Shown piece after piece: positions 44,307-52,427 of a DNA stretch of 52,759 nt (the stretch's first letter is position 1; each line of letters opens with the position of its first letter). Where the stretch lies: the NCBI GenBank assembly GCA_963170185.1, contig CAUJGS010000114.1, positions 1 to 52,759 on the forward strand. The letters are read 5' to 3'. The notes below the pieces were generated by a model. The model did no database searches. It saw only the letters and a list, made by a program, of their open reading frames with translations, and had not been told where the DNA came from. This DNA is from Bdellovibrionota bacterium. GTDB lineage: Bacteria > Bdellovibrionota > Bdellovibrionia > Bdellovibrionales > JAMPXM01. Both the position numbers and the translations under genes were made by a program.

Positions 44307-45434
44307 TTACGACATTCCTTTCACTGACCGCGGTAGCCCTAGCACATACGAAGCAATCGTGGCTGCCGCTCCAGGCGCTGAAAACTTTAATACGTTTTTT
44401 TCCAACTCGCCCAGTTCTGCCAGATTCTGCTTCAAGCGTCGAACCGTTTGATCAAGTGTCGCGACATCGAAATTTTTCTGTTCCACCAAAATAGCGGCCT
44501 GCGCCTTCGCCAGCACTTCCGCATTTTTCAGCTGGTGATTGTCAGCCGCCGTGGGAAGCGGAACAAACAACGCCGCCTTTCCGCTGGCCGCAACTTCCGC
44601 GACCGTGCTGGCGCCTGCTCGGCAAACAAGCAAATCCGCCCAAGCGTACATCTGATCCATATCGTGAATATATTCGCGGCACTCCAGACTCAAACGATCT
44701 TCCGACACACCTTTGGCGCGCTCGGCCGTCTTCCATGCCTCGTAACGTCCAGAAACTTCGGCGTAATCGTACTTCCCGGTCTGGTGAATCAAATGAACGG
44801 TTCCGTCCGCAAGGCCCGTTTTTTCAACCCATTCAGCGACGACACGGTTGATAGCTCGCGCACCTTGGCTGCCGCCAAAAACGAGAACGCGAAACTTTCT
44901 TCCGCTCACGGCATCACGCGACTGCGGCTTTATGGAATCACGAACCGGCAAACCCACGCGGTGCACACGCTTTCCTTTGAGATCACGCGAAGCCGCCTCG
45001 AACACCAAAAGACACTCGTCGACGATTTTCGCCAACCACCGATTCGCAAGACCGGCATGGGCATTGGGCTCCCATATCACCGTGCGGTAATTCAAAAGGG
45101 CTGCGACAAAGAGAAACGGTCCCGAAGCAAACCCGCCTACTCCGAGCACCGCGTGCGGTCTCAACCGAAGCGCCAGCATCAAGGCCTGAGCAAACGCAAG
45201 CGGCAGTCCAAGAACGGTTTTGATCTGGTCCCAAATACCAACGCTGCTATGAAGCTTTCCGATGCGAATCAGATGCAGCGGAAGACCCGCGTGCGTGACG
45301 ATTTTTTCTTCCAAACCGCCGGAAGCGCCAACCCAGTGCACGCTGTAGCCACGTGCTATCAGCTCTTTAGCCACAGCAAGACCCGGATAGATATGTCCGC
45401 CGGTGCCGCCACCTGCTATCACCACCGTGTTCAC
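44307..45434 (-). CDS. murG: Undecaprenyldiphospho-muramoylpentapeptide beta-N-acetylglucosaminyltransferase
   Basis: 375 residues; makes lipid II from lipid I at the membrane. GGGTGGHIYPGLAVAKEL at the N-terminus, FGGSQGARAIN in the C-terminal domain and CRAGASTVAEVAASG with PLPTAADNHQ are the family's donor-site motifs. GTG start overlaps the ftsW stop as GTGA. Confidence 0.96.
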   Translation of the reverse strand: MNTVVIAGGGTGGHIYPGLAVAKELIARGYSVHWVGASGGLEEKIVTHAGLPLHLIRIGKLHSSVGIWDQIKTVLGLPLAFAQALMLALRLRPHAVLGVGGFASGPFLFVAALLNYRTVIWEPNAHAGLANRWLAKIVDECLLVFEAASRDLKGKRVHRVGLPVRDSIKPQSRDAVSGRKFRVLVFGGSQGARAINRVVAEWVEKTGLADGTVHLIHQTGKYDYAEVSGRYEAWKTAERAKGVSEDRLSLECREYIHDMDQMYAWADLLVCRAGASTVAEVAASGKAALFVPLPTAADNHQLKNAEVLAKAQAAILVEQKNFDVATLDQTVRRLKQNLAELGELEKNVLKFSAPGAAATIASYVLGLPRSVKGMS

Positions 45435-46573
45435 GCTCGACCTCGATCCAATCGCTCAAGAGACAAAAGCAAACCAAACAAGAGGCCCGACATCACGGCC
45501 GAACTTCCGCCATAAGACATAAAGGGAAGCGTGAGACCCTTGGTTGGAAGCAAACCCATCGCCACACCTGCGTTTACAAAAACCGATAAACCAAAAACGG
45601 TGGCAAGCCCCGTCGCAAGCGCTCGCTCGAAAGCCTCTTCCGCACGAGCCGCCAAACGAAACGCACGAAGCAAACAAAAGCCATAGAGCGCAAGCAAAGT
45701 CGCAACACCGATGAAGCCCATCTCTTCACCCAAAACCGCAAGCGTAAAATCGGTGTGCGCTTCCGGAAGGAAAAAGAGTTTACCCTGGCCCTCACCGAGG
45801 CCCGAGCCAGTGAGTCCACCCGAACGCAGACTCAACATCGATTGGATGACCTGGAAACCTTTTGAATCGGAAACCGACCACGGATCGAGAAACGCCAAAA
45901 CGCGCGCTTTGCGATACGGCACCTGCATAATGAGAATGTAAAACGCGGGAGCGGCGACCGCCGCGCTCGCCGCGATCCAACCCCAAGGCAGTCCAAAGAC
46001 AAAGAGGACCGCAAAGATCGTGGCCGAAGCGATAGCGAAAGTTCCAAAATCCGGCTGACGCAGCAAAAGCATCATCGGCGCGACAATCAAAACTGTCGTG
46101 ATCAAAAAACGCCAAAGTAGCGGAAGCCCCGGAAGCCACTGCGGTCGATCATCCAAACCTCGGCCGACCGAGCCGCTTGTTCGCGCTATAACAGTCGCAA
46201 GAAAAAGCGGAAGCGCCACTTTTACGAGTTCCGAAGGCTCAAAGACATTCGAGCCGGGAAGATTGATCCACCGAGCCGCACCGCCGGCCCGAACGCCAAG
46301 CCCCGGCACCAAGGTCATCGCAACACCGATCGCAGCCGTCGGCCAAAGCCACCACCCGATCCGTTCGATCCAACGAAATGGAATGAATGCGACAAAGCCC
46401 ATCAGCGCAAACGAAATCCCGGCGAACAGAACCTGTCGTCGAACGAAAAAAAGCCCGTCACCACGGGCTTCAATCGCGAAGATATAACTGGATGTATAAA
46501 CTTGAACAATTCCGAGTCCGAGGAGAGCGAAGGCTGCCAACCAAAGACCCGTTACAACACGGCGGTTTTCCAT
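45431..46573 (-). CDS. ftsW: SEDS glycosyltransferase FtsW
   Basis: 380 residues with about ten membrane spans; the septal peptidoglycan polymerase. The family patterns RRQVLFAGISF, RWINLPGSNVFEPSELVKVAL and the C-terminal GLLPTKGLTLPFMSYGGSS are present. I choose ATG 46573 since GAAGGT lies just upstream; the ATG at 46594 has no ribosome site. It begins 57 bases after the exported-kinase-like cassette. Confidence 0.94.
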   Translation of the reverse strand: MENRRVVTGLWLAAFALLGLGIVQVYTSSYIFAIEARGDGLFFVRRQVLFAGISFALMGFVAFIPFRWIERIGWWLWPTAAIGVAMTLVPGLGVRAGGAARWINLPGSNVFEPSELVKVALPLFLATVIARTSGSVGRGLDDRPQWLPGLPLLWRFLITTVLIVAPMMLLLRQPDFGTFAIASATIFAVLFVFGLPWGWIAASAAVAAPAFYILIMQVPYRKARVLAFLDPWSVSDSKGFQVIQSMLSLRSGGLTGSGLGEGQGKLFFLPEAHTDFTLAVLGEEMGFIGVATLLALYGFCLLRAFRLAARAEEAFERALATGLATVFGLSVFVNAGVAMGLLPTKGLTLPFMSYGGSSAVMSGLLFGLLLSLERLDRGRA

Positions 46574-46630
46574 GACCTTCAGAGTAAAGGCCATGGAGGT
46601 ATTCGTCTACCTTCTCGCCATTGGTCCGGA

Positions 46631-48184
46631 CTATCGGCAAGCTACCGGAGCCGGTTTCTTAAAATCACCGTTTGCATCAAAGCTAAGCACGAGATCCAGC
46701 TTCAGGTCACCGCTTTCGCAGGCCTTGATCAGAACCTGAGCCGCGTGACGAACGTTCTCGCGCAAAGAATAACGCGTCCCTTCGTAGTCCTTCTCACGAT
46801 AAGTGAGGTTTTGCAGCGCAAACGGCTTAAATCGACCGCTATCGACCTCGACCGCGAACTTGAGGAAGCGCTTATACGTTTCCGGGTTCATGTGGCGAAC
46901 CGCTTCGAGAGCACTGTGGCGACGCATCTGGTTTCCCCGTACATCGACGTCCGCTCCGCAATCGTTATCCTTCATGTGCATGGCCGCGACCAGGGTCGCT
47001 TCGCCATTTGGAAACACCACCGAAGACGCCTTCATCGCGAGATCGCGCGTGAACTGAACTTCTTTGGCGCGAGGGTTTCTCTTTTGAAGCTCGGCGAGAA
47101 GCTGCTTCTTGTGGGCTTTTAAAGCCGCTTCCTCAGATTTTTTCATCTTGCGCAAAGCCGTCGCGCCCTTTTCCAAAACCCAGGGCTTCACGTGGATGTT
47201 CCCGATGCGATCGTCTTGAGCCATCAAAGTGTCCATCAAGACCATGTCGGAAACGTCCTGCATCTGAACGATCGTCTGCGCCACCTCGGTAAATCCACGG
47301 CCAGCTATTTGCTCGACCGAGCGCGCGTCTGCGACCATTTGAAATGGTCGCTGTTGCATGAAGCGCGCGTACCGACCGTCATAGGCACCAACGCCGCTGA
47401 CTTCCGTGTACTTGTCTTCGCCTTTCAGGTTTTTCTGAAGACCGCCGTACAAGGAACGTCCGCCATCTGTATAGAGTTTCGGATTTGGCTTTCCCGCCGC
47501 TGCATTGTTCGACGCCGAAAGAAAGTTTCGCCAGTTGATTGCAATCAGGTCTTTGCTCGATCCAAAGAAGTCCGTAGCCTCCTTTGCCACCTGATGATGT
47601 GTCTCACGCGACATCGTTCGCAAGACAGATACCGGCACACGTCCGGCTCCGCCCAAGAGACGAGAAAGATGGTAGTAGCCCAAAGCCGATGCCGTGGAAG
47701 AGCATGAGATCGTCGACTTGAATTTCGCATCGAGATCGTAGTCTTCTTTGTATTCCCCATCGACCTTGTCTTTTGGCACACAGAACGCCAGTTTTGCTTG
47801 TGCGTATGTCATTCCTTTCGGAATTTCGACGAAGTTGGTTCCAGGATTCGTGCTATTGAATTTCGGACAAGCCACAATCTCTTTTGCGGGCAATGGGTCG
47901 ATATTCAACGCACCCACGCGCTCGATTTTCACCTTGCTCGCCATGCCCTCGTAGATCGTCAAACGACAAAGCTTCATCTCGTCTTCACGATCCGAATCGA
48001 GGTCGCGATATTTCAGATCTTGCGTCTCGTAGTACGCAGGCACGATACAGACTTCGTCCACACCACTCTTAGGCGACGGATGGATATAGCGCAGCTCCGC
48101 ACCACCTGAAGCATGGGCCGTAGAAAGCGCGAACGGTGCCGCCATCGCAGCTAGAAGCGAGCGGTGTTTAATTGGAAATTTCAT
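46631..48184 (-). CDS. Exported kinase-like protein (HipA/FAM20-like fold), third gene of the cassette
   Basis: 517 residues with a signal peptide (LAAMAAPFALSTAHAS). Residues 166-191 (LGYYHLSRLLG, GRVPVSVLRT) resemble the start of the HipA/FAM20/phosphatidylinositol-kinase-like fold, in which a helix precedes 'LLG...VP'. Then MDTLMAQDDRIGNIH at 317-331 resembles the catalytic loop with the D-R-x-x-N pattern, and MKDND at 404-408 resembles the metal-binding Asp. These are motif-level resemblances, not proof of kinase activity. The gene's ATG overlaps the stop of the middle gene (ATGA). Exported kinases of this fold are rare in bacteria; substrate unknown. Confidence 0.65.
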   Translation of the reverse strand: MKFPIKHRSLLAAMAAPFALSTAHASGGAELRYIHPSPKSGVDEVCIVPAYYETQDLKYRDLDSDREDEMKLCRLTIYEGMASKVKIERVGALNIDPLPAKEIVACPKFNSTNPGTNFVEIPKGMTYAQAKLAFCVPKDKVDGEYKEDYDLDAKFKSTISCSSTASALGYYHLSRLLGGAGRVPVSVLRTMSRETHHQVAKEATDFFGSSKDLIAINWRNFLSASNNAAAGKPNPKLYTDGGRSLYGGLQKNLKGEDKYTEVSGVGAYDGRYARFMQQRPFQMVADARSVEQIAGRGFTEVAQTIVQMQDVSDMVLMDTLMAQDDRIGNIHVKPWVLEKGATALRKMKKSEEAALKAHKKQLLAELQKRNPRAKEVQFTRDLAMKASSVVFPNGEATLVAAMHMKDNDCGADVDVRGNQMRRHSALEAVRHMNPETYKRFLKFAVEVDSGRFKPFALQNLTYREKDYEGTRYSLRENVRHAAQVLIKACESGDLKLDLVLSFDANGDFKKPAPVACR

Positions 48185-49371
48185 GGTTTCGTCTCCACAT
48201 TATTCTTTTCGATTTGAAAGCGTTTGGTTGCGAGTTGATATGTCGTCGGCATGTCGCTAGCGCGAATCTCCACCAACGCACGTGTACTGAGTTCCACCTT
48301 GGGTTCTGTCGATTTCGGGCCACGCACTTTCACGTCGTACACGGCCTCCGCCAGTCCGACAAAAATGCGTTTGGAAGGTTTATCCATGACCCAGAATCTT
48401 TCCGGACCACGATCCAAGCGCGCCCCCGCAGTCGAAGCGACTTCGATATCGCGAAGCTGAAGAATCTCGCCCTCCGAAGCCTTGCGCGGCAGTTTCGTCG
48501 CATCCGCCACCAAGCGCACTTTCTCAGAGTCTGGAATCTTCACTTGAGCTTCGGTCTCCATATTGGCTAACTCCACCAGTAAAAGAGCCGCCATAGCGTC
48601 CAACGCCGATTTCGGCGCCTTCTCGTCGTCACCGGTAAACATCACGGCCAAAACCGACGAACCAAAAACCACGCCGCCAAAAAGAACCCCGCGGAAAATC
48701 TGCTTCACAAGGTCTTTGGAGATGACCTCTTTGATCCAGCGACCCTTCAGCGCCAAGCGAAGTTTACGAAGATCCGCCGAAGGATTTTTCCCCTGAGCCA
48801 ACTGACGGAAGTCTTTGGCTTCGGCGTAGTCGAGAATGTCGATGTGATCTCTTAGAAACCCAGTCAATTCAGGACTCAGTTCAAGAGGAAGCTCACGCCG
48901 AACCGCCGCGACCAACGGGTGCACGGCGACTTCCGAGCGCAAACGCCCCGTGACCGCATCCACCGGCTCGGCCGAAATCAAAACATTCGCCGTGCCCTTG
49001 CCACGCACTTCGAGCTCAACAAGACGTGGCAACGCGCCGTCTACCGATCCATCGATTCGGTAAGTCGCAAGCAACGTGCTTCCGTCTTGGTTTTTAAGAC
49101 CGAGTTTCAGCTCGCCATCTTTTTTCCAAGCCTTGCCGTTGAGCTTCGGTAGACCACTTTCCCCGATCATCGCCAGCGTCGAAGTGATCTTCGCTTCGGC
49201 GGACTTCGCTTCCCATGCCTCAACGGCCAGACGGGCTTCCGCCTCGTGAGGCCGCATGTCGACAAACTGCGATTCGCAGTCTTGCCCGTAAGCCGGCTGA
49301 GTCATCGCCATAAAAAGTGAGACCGCACAAGCCACGCGAACCCCTTGCCGTGCGTATTTCGACGTCTTCAT
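48181..49371 (-). CDS. Exported protein with one internal membrane segment, second gene of the cassette
   Basis: 396 residues. Signal peptide (VACAVSLFMAMTQPAYGQ); a soluble N-terminal part; one hydrophobic stretch at about 226-246 (GVLFGGVVFGSSVLAVMF); then a C-terminal soluble part with strand-like repeats. No known domain. Both ends overlap their neighbours by four bases (ATGA), so it is made with the two kinase-like proteins. It could be a scaffold or membrane anchor for them, or a substrate (inference). Confidence 0.65.
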   Translation of the reverse strand: MKTSKYARQGVRVACAVSLFMAMTQPAYGQDCESQFVDMRPHEAEARLAVEAWEAKSAEAKITSTLAMIGESGLPKLNGKAWKKDGELKLGLKNQDGSTLLATYRIDGSVDGALPRLVELEVRGKGTANVLISAEPVDAVTGRLRSEVAVHPLVAAVRRELPLELSPELTGFLRDHIDILDYAEAKDFRQLAQGKNPSADLRKLRLALKGRWIKEVISKDLVKQIFRGVLFGGVVFGSSVLAVMFTGDDEKAPKSALDAMAALLLVELANMETEAQVKIPDSEKVRLVADATKLPRKASEGEILQLRDIEVASTAGARLDRGPERFWVMDKPSKRIFVGLAEAVYDVKVRGPKSTEPKVELSTRALVEIRASDMPTTYQLATKRFQIEKNNVETKP

Positions 49372-50687
49372 CGTGCCTCCTCACGCAAGCGATTCATATG
49401 GCCCCGGTTGAAGCCATCCAAAGACTCCATAATCGCGACCTGATGGTCGCGCAGAGCTTCGGCGAAACGCCGACTGCGCCCCGCCTCTTGTGCGTAGAGC
49501 TGACGACCATGAAAAGTCCCAACCCACTGCGCATGATGCCGCGCCAGCTCCAACAGATGCTCGAAATCCGTCGGTGCTTTTTGCTTATACGGAACTGATA
49601 TCGTTTCGACCTTTTTATCTCTCAATACGAAGCTGTTTCCACCGATCCGAATCTGCGGAAAAATTGCGGCGATATCGTAGTCCAAAAATCGGGAAGCCGC
49701 GATCTGCACATCCAAGAGCTTCGGCTGATCCTGATATGTCGTGACGGCGCTCTCGCCGACACGCTTTAGTTCTTTCATCAAAATCCGACCGTCTTGGGTT
49801 TCAAACAAAACCAAGATTCGCATCTGATCGCGCGAACCTCCTCGGTCCTTGATACTGACGATTGCATCTCGCAAATGGCCCCAGCCAAGGTGCGTTCGCA
49901 GCTCACGCTCCAGTTTCGGGCGAATCTCCGGCTCTTTTAGTCCCAGCTCCTTGGCCGCATAGGAGAGCGGCCGAGTGCTCTCGCCATCGACGCCGAACAA
50001 ACCATCCTCATCCGTCTTGTTGTCTTGCTTCTTTAAAAGCTTGCGCTGAAGCTTTTCCGGCGAAGGCATATCCAGAGCGTGCTGAGCCGTAAGCGCAAAG
50101 TCCTCGCGGACCAACCCCTGACGATAAGACACATAGATGTCTCGCGCGATCTCCTGCCGCTCGTTTGCACTTAGATGGCGACGTCGCGACGCGACCGCAA
50201 CCGTGTTTAAAACCAGTCGATTGATATCGTAAAGCGCAGGGGCGTAACCCAAGTCCTTTACGTCAAACAGGGTATAAAGCACGCCTTTTCCGGGGACATA
50301 AACTGGTGAAAAGTTGCCGGAATGCAGGTCTCCCACCGAGATCACCTCGGACTTTAGAACCTCCGGCAGTTCCTTCCATTTCAGGGGATGCCGAGATCTC
50401 GCTTCCGCCCAATAAAAGGGAGCATTGTCTCGCACCTTTTGCGAAAGCGTTTCGCTAGCCTCGTAGCTACGGAAGACGTCTTTGGGTTTGATATTGGCTG
50501 CGCGCCCACGCAAAGCCTCTTCGCAACTCATCGCTTGGGCTTGAGTGACAAAGCTCATTGAAAAATATGCTGGCAAAGATACCAGGAGTGATGCCAGGAA
50601 GAGACTTCCATGGTGCCACCGCTTTTTACCGGTTTCTGAGTTCACAGAAACGAGTAATTTGTGCTGGTACTTATGCGTTTGCTTCAC
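49368..50687 (-). CDS. Exported DUF2252 protein (kinase-like fold), first gene of the cassette
   Basis: 439 residues with a signal-like hydrophobic segment at about 28-50 (SLFLASLLVSLPAYFSM). The DUF2252 motifs are clear: VGDLHSGNF at about 118-126 (catalytic-loop-like D-H-x-x-N) and TLFDVKDLGYAPALYDINRL at about 139-158, with the later RILVLFETQDGRILMKELKR as the lysine-bearing lobe found after the catalytic part in this family. DUF2252 is related to aminoglycoside and choline kinase folds; activity is unproven. The start is GTG 50687, and the end overlaps the middle gene (ATGA). Confidence 0.78.
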   Translation of the reverse strand: MKQTHKYQHKLLVSVNSETGKKRWHHGSLFLASLLVSLPAYFSMSFVTQAQAMSCEEALRGRAANIKPKDVFRSYEASETLSQKVRDNAPFYWAEARSRHPLKWKELPEVLKSEVISVGDLHSGNFSPVYVPGKGVLYTLFDVKDLGYAPALYDINRLVLNTVAVASRRRHLSANERQEIARDIYVSYRQGLVREDFALTAQHALDMPSPEKLQRKLLKKQDNKTDEDGLFGVDGESTRPLSYAAKELGLKEPEIRPKLERELRTHLGWGHLRDAIVSIKDRGGSRDQMRILVLFETQDGRILMKELKRVGESAVTTYQDQPKLLDVQIAASRFLDYDIAAIFPQIRIGGNSFVLRDKKVETISVPYKQKAPTDFEHLLELARHHAQWVGTFHGRQLYAQEAGRSRRFAEALRDHQVAIMESLDGFNRGHMNRLREEAR

Positions 50688-50849: not shown

Positions 50850-50888
50850 GGAAAAAAAGAAAAGCCCCACCAGCGAAACCGGTGAGGC
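50850..50888 (-). terminator. Rho-independent terminator downstream of murD
   Basis: Read on the minus strand, GCCTCACC (50888-50881) pairs with GGTGGGGC (50871-50864; one G-T pair) around a nine-base loop, and is followed by TTTTCTTTTTTT. It would stop transcription from murD before the exported-kinase-like cassette. Confidence 0.75.
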
Positions 50889-50896
50889 CTACTCAA

Positions 50897-50984
50897 GCGA
50901 GTGTTTTGTTCGGCGAACCTCCCACCGCAGGATGCGGCGGGGTGGGCGAGGCAGGATGCCGTGTTCGCCGAATAAAACTCTCGC
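50897..50984. repeat. Large inverted repeat with 22-base arms just after murD
   Basis: Arms at 50897-50918 and 50963-50984 are inverted copies with two mismatches, including the perfect ten-base TTCGGCGAAC / GTTCGCCGAA. The 44-base centre itself holds two smaller stems, both with the loop AGGAT (CCGC-AGGAT-GCGG and GGC-AGGAT-GCC), giving a branched shape. It lies three bases beyond the murD stop codon. Confidence 0.85.
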
Positions 50985-50987
50985 GTT

Positions 50988-52427
50988 TTAGCGGAACTTG
51001 CCTACGATCTCCTTGAAGTAGTTTCCGCGCTCTTCGTAGCTATCGAACATATCGAAGCTCGAAGCCCCCGGAGAGAGGAGAACCGAGTCGCTGATACGGG
51101 ACTTCTGGTAAGCGATCAAAACCGCCTCTTCAAACGTTCCAATGAGGAAGGTTTCCGACCAGTCGCCGAGGTCGCGGTTCATACGCTCCTTGGCTTCACC
51201 GACCAGGATCAGCGTCTTTACTTTGCGCTTCACCATCTCACGCAGCGGCTCGTACGAGAGGTTCGTATCCTTACCACCCATGATAAGGATGACGTTTTCG
51301 TCAAACGCGTCGAGAGCTCGCATCACTGCGTGCACGTTGGTCGCTTTCGAGTCGTTGTAGAACTCAACGCCACCGACGCGGCGAACGTACTCGAGACGAT
51401 GAGGCATACCGCCATACGTGTCGATAACCTTCTGAATCGATTCGTGCTTCGCGCCGTGCTCACGCGCCGCCAAGATCGCCGCCATGATGTTGTCGATCGA
51501 ATGCTTGCCGCGCATCTTCATGTTGCGAACCGTGTACGTTTCGATCTCGGGACCTGTGCGAACGCGGACTTCGTCCTTGATACACACAGCACCGCCGATA
51601 GACATGATTTGCGGTTCCAATGCAGGTTTACGCGAGAAGTAGAAAATCCGGCCACGCTGAACCGCTGGATCGCGTGCAAGCTCAACAACCGCGTTGTCAT
51701 CGGCATTTAAGATCGACGTCGTCGCCTGATTGACGTTCTGGAAGATGCGACGTTTTGCGTTCACATACTCTTCCATCGACTTGTAACGGTCTTGGTGGTT
51801 TTCAGCCAAGTTCGTGAACACGATGTTTTGCGGAGTGAATCGATCACAGTGCTCAAGCTGGAAGCTCGAAACTTCCGCGACAACCGAATCAAATTGTTCG
51901 CCACGCTTTAGAGCGCGTAGGAACTCGACAAGTGGTTCTCCGAAGTTTCCACCAAGCCACGCGCGAACGCCCGACTCTTTCAAGAAAAGCTCGATGAGTT
52001 TGCACGTCGTCGATTTCCCGTTGGTACCAGTGACACCCACAAGCGGCTGCTTCACGAACCATGTCGAGAACTCGAACTCACCCGTCACGACAACGCCGTT
52101 CGAACGAGCGTATTCGAAGATCTTAAGATTTGGCGGAACACCCGGCGAAAGGATGATCACGTCTTGAGCCAAGAAGATCTTGGGGCTGTGGCCGCCGAGA
52201 TCAAGTTGCACGTTGAGGCCTTCGATTTGCTCAAGAGCCGACGCGAGTTCCGGCTTCGACTTGTGATCCGAGATCGTGACCTGCGCTCCACACTCTGTTA
52301 GGAAGTGCGCGAGACTCACGCCACAACGAGCAAGACCGACAACGAGGACGCGTTTTCCTTCGAGGTCTTTGAAGTCACTAAACGGTGGCGGTGTTCCGGA
52401 CGATGGTGGCATTGGAGGGTGTGGCAT
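50988..52427 (-). CDS. murD: UDP-N-acetylmuramoyl-L-alanine-D-glutamate ligase
   Basis: 479 residues; adds D-Glu to UDP-MurNAc-L-Ala. VVGLARCGVSLAHFL, GVTGTNGKSTTCKLIE (ATP site), SSFQLEHCDRF, ENHQDRYKS, YNDSKATNVHAVMRAL and SPGASSFDMFDSYEERG match MurD. The N-terminus has an extra Pro-rich 15 residues. AAGGAG lies 12 bases before the ATG, somewhat far. Confidence 0.95.
   Translation of the reverse strand: MPHPPMPPSSGTPPPFSDFKDLEGKRVLVVGLARCGVSLAHFLTECGAQVTISDHKSKPELASALEQIEGLNVQLDLGGHSPKIFLAQDVIILSPGVPPNLKIFEYARSNGVVVTGEFEFSTWFVKQPLVGVTGTNGKSTTCKLIELFLKESGVRAWLGGNFGEPLVEFLRALKRGEQFDSVVAEVSSFQLEHCDRFTPQNIVFTNLAENHQDRYKSMEEYVNAKRRIFQNVNQATTSILNADDNAVVELARDPAVQRGRIFYFSRKPALEPQIMSIGGAVCIKDEVRVRTGPEIETYTVRNMKMRGKHSIDNIMAAILAAREHGAKHESIQKVIDTYGGMPHRLEYVRRVGGVEFYNDSKATNVHAVMRALDAFDENVILIMGGKDTNLSYEPLREMVKRKVKTLILVGEAKERMNRDLGDWSETFLIGTFEEAVLIAYQKSRISDSVLLSPGASSFDMFDSYEERGNYFKEIVGKFR

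Follow-up and report, generated by a model that had tools for sequence, protein, structure and literature searches.

Two exported kinase-like proteins, one a remote relative of Fam20 kinases, encoded between murD and ftsW in a Bdellovibrionota bacterium

Why would a bacterium encode three exported proteins, two of them kinase-like, between the cell division genes murD and ftsW? The question is raised by a stretch of 52,759 nucleotides from a Bdellovibrionota bacterium (contig CAUJGS010000114.1 of assembly GCA_963170185.1), the whole of which is referred to here as the window. A cassette of three minus-strand genes (50687–46631) lies in it between murD (52427..50988) and ftsW (46594..45431), and an earlier note on this DNA proposed a periplasmic phosphotransfer or ligand-binding system tied to septal wall synthesis. 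The analysis described here indicates that the product of the third gene, K517, is a remote relative of the Fam20 kinases, and that the cassette is probably a module for phosphotransfer outside the cytoplasm which happens to sit in the division and cell wall (dcw) cluster.

The cassette and the predicted Fam20-like fold of K517

The first gene of the cassette (50687..49368, minus strand, GTG start) encodes D2252, an exported DUF2252 protein of 439 amino acids with a permuted kinase-like architecture; the second (49371..48181, minus strand, ATG start) encodes P2, an exported or membrane protein of 396 amino acids that matches no family; and the third (48184..46631, minus strand, ATG start) encodes the 517-residue K517, an exported Fam20-like kinase according to AlphaFold2 (AF2), Foldseek, and hhalign. 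Consecutive genes are joined by ATGA four-base overlaps at 49368–49371 and 48181–48184, which can be read directly in the sequence, as had been described earlier, and the motifs quoted at that time are also present, with GDLHSGNF and FDVKD in D2252, and SRLLGGAGRVPVSVLR, DDRIGNIH, and DND in K517. The order D2252–P2–K517 recurs in two further genomes of the genus (G004 and G001), so the three genes do co-occur beyond a single genome. Because of this recurrence, and because 40 diverse homologs of K517 all keep its catalytic residues, the arrangement is not attributable to chance. A reading of the cassette as a defence system received no support from PADLOC.

Each of the three proteins opens with a hydrophobic stretch like those of Sec signals, as do most of their homologs according to hydropathy, which agrees with the earlier proposal that all three are exported; in K517, an AHA-S cleavage site is recognizable by eye. 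The cysteine residues of K517 vary in pairs: Cys161 and Cys409 are both present in 12 of the 40 homologs and both absent in 28, never occurring singly, Cys46 and Cys73 are lost together in three of the 40, and the residues at positions 106/135 and 489/516 also behave as pairs. Such paired variation is expected of disulfides in an oxidizing compartment, and it agrees with the signal peptides of K517, suggesting a secreted protein with predicted disulfide bonds.

The sequence of K517 has no match in Pfam, NCBIfam, PADLOC, or the PDB, and a PDB search with a single profile of the 40 homologs returned matches at chance level only. The AF2 model of K517 (pLDDT 91.5, pTM 0.91), however, retrieves Fam20 kinases in a Foldseek search of the PDB, where the top six matches are all Fam20 structures (E 5.7e-4 to 4.6e-3, probability 0.99 to 1.00), followed by PI3- and PI4-kinases without significance. 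A comparison that is independent of structure gives the same answer: in hhalign, with a Fam20 profile built from PDB sequences, the K517 family matches Fam20 at E=5e-4 (alignment A1) and 0.0032 (alignment A2), and the score was reached by none of 100 column shuffles for either alignment. The score of 35.5 compares with 13.4 for the reversed profile, and the outcome was the same when the Fam20 profile was extended upstream to full length (35.2 versus a shuffle maximum of 23.5). The confident part of the profile alignment pairs YYHLSRLLGGAGRVPVSVLR of K517 (amino acids 170–189; 47618..47677, minus strand) with AFHLDRILDFRRVPPVAGR, the Fam20 segment AFHLDRIL-FRRVPPVAGR, and relaxed alignments place, in colinear order, QDVSDMVLMDTLMAQDDR on LDVMDMTIFDFLMGNMDR, DND on DNG, and RHMNPETYKRFLKFA on CRIRKSTYLRLQLLA. 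Since the significant fold matches are to Fam20 alone, the profile score lies above all shuffles, and the motifs occur in order, K517 is a remote Fam20 relative; the kinase-fold hallmarks that had been pointed out in its sequence are thus matched by its predicted structure.

The residues that are invariant in all 40 homologs (E69, K156, D325, R326, N329, D406, and D408; E44 is nearly so) include those expected of a kinase active site. Lys156 (AKFK; 47717..47719, minus strand) falls on Fam20C Lys285 (ALFK), at a position where the alignment is of low confidence. Asp325, in the catalytic loop DDRIGNIH (amino acids 324–331; 47192..47215, minus strand), falls on Fam20C D458, and Asp406, in the metal loop KDNDC (amino acids 405–409; 46958..46972, minus strand), falls on Fam20C D478.

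Relatives of K517 were searched for with one genome per species, giving 121 relatives, of which 80 were kept. The homologs span five phyla (Bdellovibrionota, Pseudomonadota, Thermodesulfobacteriota, Acidobacteriota, and Aquificota), those of the Pseudomonadota coming mainly from Rhodobacterales, and also from Bradyrhizobium, Thiothrix, and Chromatiales. Bradyrhizobium homologs were found at three loci (L088, L090, and L091), and the one at L090, which was included in the tree, branches among Bdellovibrionota, suggesting horizontal transfer. The genome of the window holds a second, solitary K517 paralog with 44% identity and intact motifs (G000:C74, L036:1733–3361).

Putative partners of K517

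D2252 matches the DUF2252 family (PF10009) above the curated cut-off (E=2.5e-9, 37.1 bits against 22.3), with the match covering amino acids 113–192 only. Its catalytic motif GDLHSGN (amino acids 119–125, or 119–126 as GDLHSGNF; 50313..50333, minus strand) contains G119, D120, and H122, which are invariant in nine homologs, whereas position 125 is Asn in seven of the nine and Gln in two. The metal-loop motif FDVKD (amino acids 141–145; 50253..50267, minus strand) contributes the invariant D142, and the KELK sequence (amino acids 305–308; 49764..49775, minus strand), with invariant E306 and K308, lies in a strand of the model (residues 302–309) that carries the putative nucleotide lysine, Lys308. 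In the sequence and in the AF2 model (pLDDT 82, pTM 0.80), D120 and D142 precede the Lys308-bearing sheet, which is a permuted kinase order, and the DUF2252 family has been described with flipped kinase lobes (PMC9758233). A PDB profile search with D2252 retrieved amicoumacin kinase (E=0.0021). The earlier proposal of two exported proteins whose kinase-like architectures differ is thus supported, K517 having the usual order of N-lobe to C-lobe and D2252 having its catalytic motifs ahead of the lysine sheet.

D2252 homologs adjoin K517 homologs in eight genomes. The two occur together without P2 in three genomes of the family (G006, G008, and G011) and at two loci of metagenome-assembled genomes (L080 and L081), in one of which a single open frame of 823 amino acids joins the K517 homolog to the DUF2252 homolog (L080:9773–12241). 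The K517 homolog of G028 (locus L104) belongs to the other deep branch of the tree, and one gene separates it from a D2252 homolog; at L059:7609–12994 of G028, MurJ, a K517 homolog, an exported phosphoesterase, and a DUF2252 homolog stand in a row. When adjacency to D2252 is mapped as a label on a quick tree of 71 K517 homologs, no fewer than five changes of the label are required by the starred branches, and the pairing has therefore been lost and regained, or gained repeatedly. This recurrent adjacency provides moderate, not strong, grounds for a functional link between D2252 and K517, since the label is scattered on the tree; the fusion adds to it.

K517 homologs have further exported neighbours. 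A calcineurin-like phosphoesterase with a predicted export signal (PF00149, 4.7e-18) adjoins the K517 homolog in 53 of 109 fetched loci, which include some genomes fetched twice, and 50 of these 53 pairs are codirectional and overlap by a median of about 11 nucleotides. At 44 loci (L091:9120–9797, for example), the adjacent gene encodes an exported protein that carries the motif HCxxGxH(S/A)S(G/N) and that no Pfam family recognizes; judged by this motif, it resembles a dual-specificity phosphatase without the P-loop arginine. An HCxxG protein is also encoded in the window genome, on another contig.

P2 has no match in Pfam, NCBIfam, PADLOC, or PDB sequence searches and is almost restricted to the genus; three relatives were found, one of them remote and located beside a K517 homolog in G058. 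The single internal membrane segment ascribed to P2 corresponds to one hydrophobic stretch (amino acids 229–247; 48631..48687, minus strand; mean Kyte–Doolittle value 1.94), but its hydrophobicity is weaker in the P2 relatives, so that this stretch probably, though not certainly, spans the membrane.

Activity, phosphate donor, and genomic position

Several observations weigh against the reading of the cassette as a phosphotransfer module with a Fam20-like kinase. The Foldseek TM-scores between K517 and Fam20 are modest (0.33–0.47), and neither the Fam20C nor the CotH model of Pfam matches any of the 40 K517 homologs at E<=1. The metal-binding E306 of Fam20C aligns with S162 of K517 (T/S/V in the family), and E311, which forms the ion pair, aligns with A167 (S/I/A/P/T), neither position being acidic in any of the 40 homologs; Fam20C requires E306, and the absence of this glutamate alone turns Fam20A into a pseudokinase (PMC4421793). 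The D2252 model has no PDB match at E<=0.001 in the fold search, in which the weak list is rich in kinases and the sequential method cannot follow the permutation, and most genomes carry K517 without D2252. Because the Fam20C model finds no match, and because Ser/Thr and Ser/Ile/Ala stand in place of E306 and E311, K517 does not, as judged from its sequence, belong to Fam20 in the strict sense, and its kinase activity is not certain, since both the αC glutamate and the metal glutamate of Fam20 are absent. In K517, either E69, which is invariant, or E44, which is nearly so, may act as a stand-in for the missing glutamates.

The main rival explanation, accordingly, is that K517 and D2252 are exported pseudokinases, whose kinase folds bind a ligand or provide a scaffold and transfer no phosphate. 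ATP is scarce outside the cytoplasm, and the substitution of Asn125 by Gln in two of the nine D2252 homologs, together with the family-wide absence of the two glutamates from K517, would be in line with such a loss. Nevertheless, K156, D325, N329, D406, and D408 have been kept without exception in homologs from five phyla, the missing acid could be replaced by E69 or E44, and the coupling of an exported phosphatase to K517 in about half of the loci fits a turnover of phosphate. The worry that activity has been lost, which was already expressed in the earlier note, thus has some basis in the missing glutamates, but it has to be set against the retention of K156, D325, and D406, and we regard the pseudokinase explanation as rather unlikely.

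A second alternative is that the K517 family serves a CotH-like envelope polymer system with VTC and DUF4956 partners, in which polyphosphate-linked metabolism is the source of the donor. At the K517 loci of Bdellovibrio, genes follow for a VTC polyphosphate polymerase (PF09359, 1.5e-48), a DUF4956 protein, an HlyD-type protein, and a protein judged TolC-like by eye, and DUF4956 is also found near K517 in Rhodobacterales. CotH has the same two partners, VTC and DUF4956, in pel clusters (PMC7112168), and in G008 (C495) the genes for a DUF2252 homolog and a VTC polyphosphate polymerase are immediate neighbours. However, the VTC association is confined to nearly one clade of the K517 tree, and VTC, DUF4956, and the partner metallophosphatase were found neither in the window genome nor in its genus. 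The VTC-type polyphosphate route therefore does not explain the cassette; as a source of the donor it was rejected for the genus of the window and kept for Bdellovibrio, and the alternative as a whole appears improbable.

The phosphotransfer module is the preferred reading, and its position between murD and ftsW was compared with the same junction in relatives. An ftsW-type protein is present in 40 of 40 genomes checked, and murD and ftsW are directly adjacent in a congener (G003) and in many genomes of the order, while unrelated genes separate them in six others (G002, G012, G006, G028, G029, and G035). The cassette occupies the junction in two species of the genus, whereas in G001 it resides on a contig with other neighbours. 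In the window, murD is followed, just after its stop codon, by an inverted repeat (50897..50984; 22-nucleotide arms, 91% complementary), and then by a strong intrinsic terminator ahead of the cassette (50862..50890, minus strand), composed of a 13-pair stem and TTCTTTTTTT. Terminators flank the cassette on both sides in the closest relative, G004, the second lying between the cassette and ftsW, whereas the gap of 36 bases between K517 and ftsW in the window contains none. The cassette is probably transcribed from a start of its own, and in the window transcription may read on into ftsW. Given the variable junction, the location of the cassette in G001, and the flanking terminators, the murD–ftsW junction is, as far as gene order can tell, a tolerated landing site and not a functional link.

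Across Bdellovibrionota, the junction behaves as a variable insertion site (L189, L191, L192, L198, L199, and L203). At L198, it holds three genes of 1114–1250 amino acids, and in a congener that lacks the cassette, a 22-base unit (GAGGTTGAGCTTCAGCTCACAT) is repeated in tandem about five times between murD and ftsW (L200:7990–8100).

That the cassette regulates septal wall synthesis and was selected for its position, the tie proposed in the earlier note, is very improbable and was rejected on the synteny of the junction, for the position shared by two species, the terminator-free gap before ftsW, and the K517 homolog adjoining murJ in G028 are outweighed by relatives whose junctions are empty or differently filled, by the displaced cassette of G001, by terminators on one or both sides, and by the many other contexts of the wider K517 family, and a murD–cassette–ftsW order conserved across Bdellovibrionota was not recovered.

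Proposed mechanism and comparison with known systems

In the proposed module, K517 would be a secreted kinase with disulfide bonds, from a bacterial family that is a distant relation of animal Fam20; its residues K156, D325, and D406 would bind the metal and a nucleotide or other phosphate donor, and the substrate would most likely be an envelope protein, glycan, or lipid. D2252 would be a second, permuted kinase-like subunit that works together with K517, in a role that would be either allosteric, like that of Fam20A toward Fam20C, or that of a second transferase, and P2 would be a probable membrane anchor. The signal-like N-termini, the conservation of kinase residues, the Fam20-like predicted fold, the recurrent adjacency, and one fusion are observed; catalysis by K517, formation of a complex, and anchoring by P2 are what we infer from them.

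These features suggest extracytoplasmic phosphorylation in some bacteria. A broader proposal, which we put forward tentatively and with more doubt than confidence, is that Gram-negative bacteria of several phyla possess a dedicated system of reversible phosphorylation outside the cytoplasm, composed of an exported Fam20-like kinase, often a co-translated exported metallophosphatase, and further partners that differ between lineages, an exported permuted DUF2252 kinase being one example, and that this system is the counterpart, perhaps the source, of the Fam20 secretory kinases of animals. Published descriptions of Fam20 kinases present them as proteins of animals. Searching the text of the main evolutionary paper for mentions of bacteria returned nothing, and no papers joining Bdellovibrio with Fam20 kinases were found in the open-licence literature. 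A large bacterial family with the Fam20 fold and motifs would bear on the origin of secretory kinases, and regulated phosphorylation of the bacterial envelope, along with its donor, is a question that can be tested in the culturable Bdellovibrio bacteriovorus and Ruegeria. Bacterial relatives of Fam20 are already known in a broad sense, since a published grouping places effector families of Legionella with FAM20/CotH (PMC9758233).

Among known systems, the Fam20 kinases (Fam20A/B/C; PF06702) are the best structural match of K517, which resembles them in being exported and, by prediction, rich in disulfides, and which may likewise pair with a second kinase-like protein. The motifs of the two are colinear (AFHLDRIL-RVPP, DxxDMxxxDxLxxxxDR, DN(G/D), and CRIRKSTYLRLQLL / RHMNPETYKRFLKF). 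In contrast to Fam20, K517 is bacterial, shares only about 13% identity, has its own cysteine pattern, and carries Asn329 after the catalytic aspartate. The CotH kinases (PF08757) are also exported or surface kinases of bacteria, and some K517 homologs share their VTC and DUF4956 gene neighbours (PMC7112168); however, the 40 K517 homologs checked do not match the CotH model, and the fold search gave Fam20, not CotH. D2252 has the GDxHxxN and DxxD motifs of the DUF2252 family (PF10009) and its reported permuted lobe order, and the D2252-type members described here carry signal peptides and adjoin K517 homologs. The Fam20A–Fam20C pair offers an analogy only, because D2252 is not a Fam20 protein, but K517 and D2252 are likewise two exported kinase-like proteins that are encoded together and, in one case, fused.

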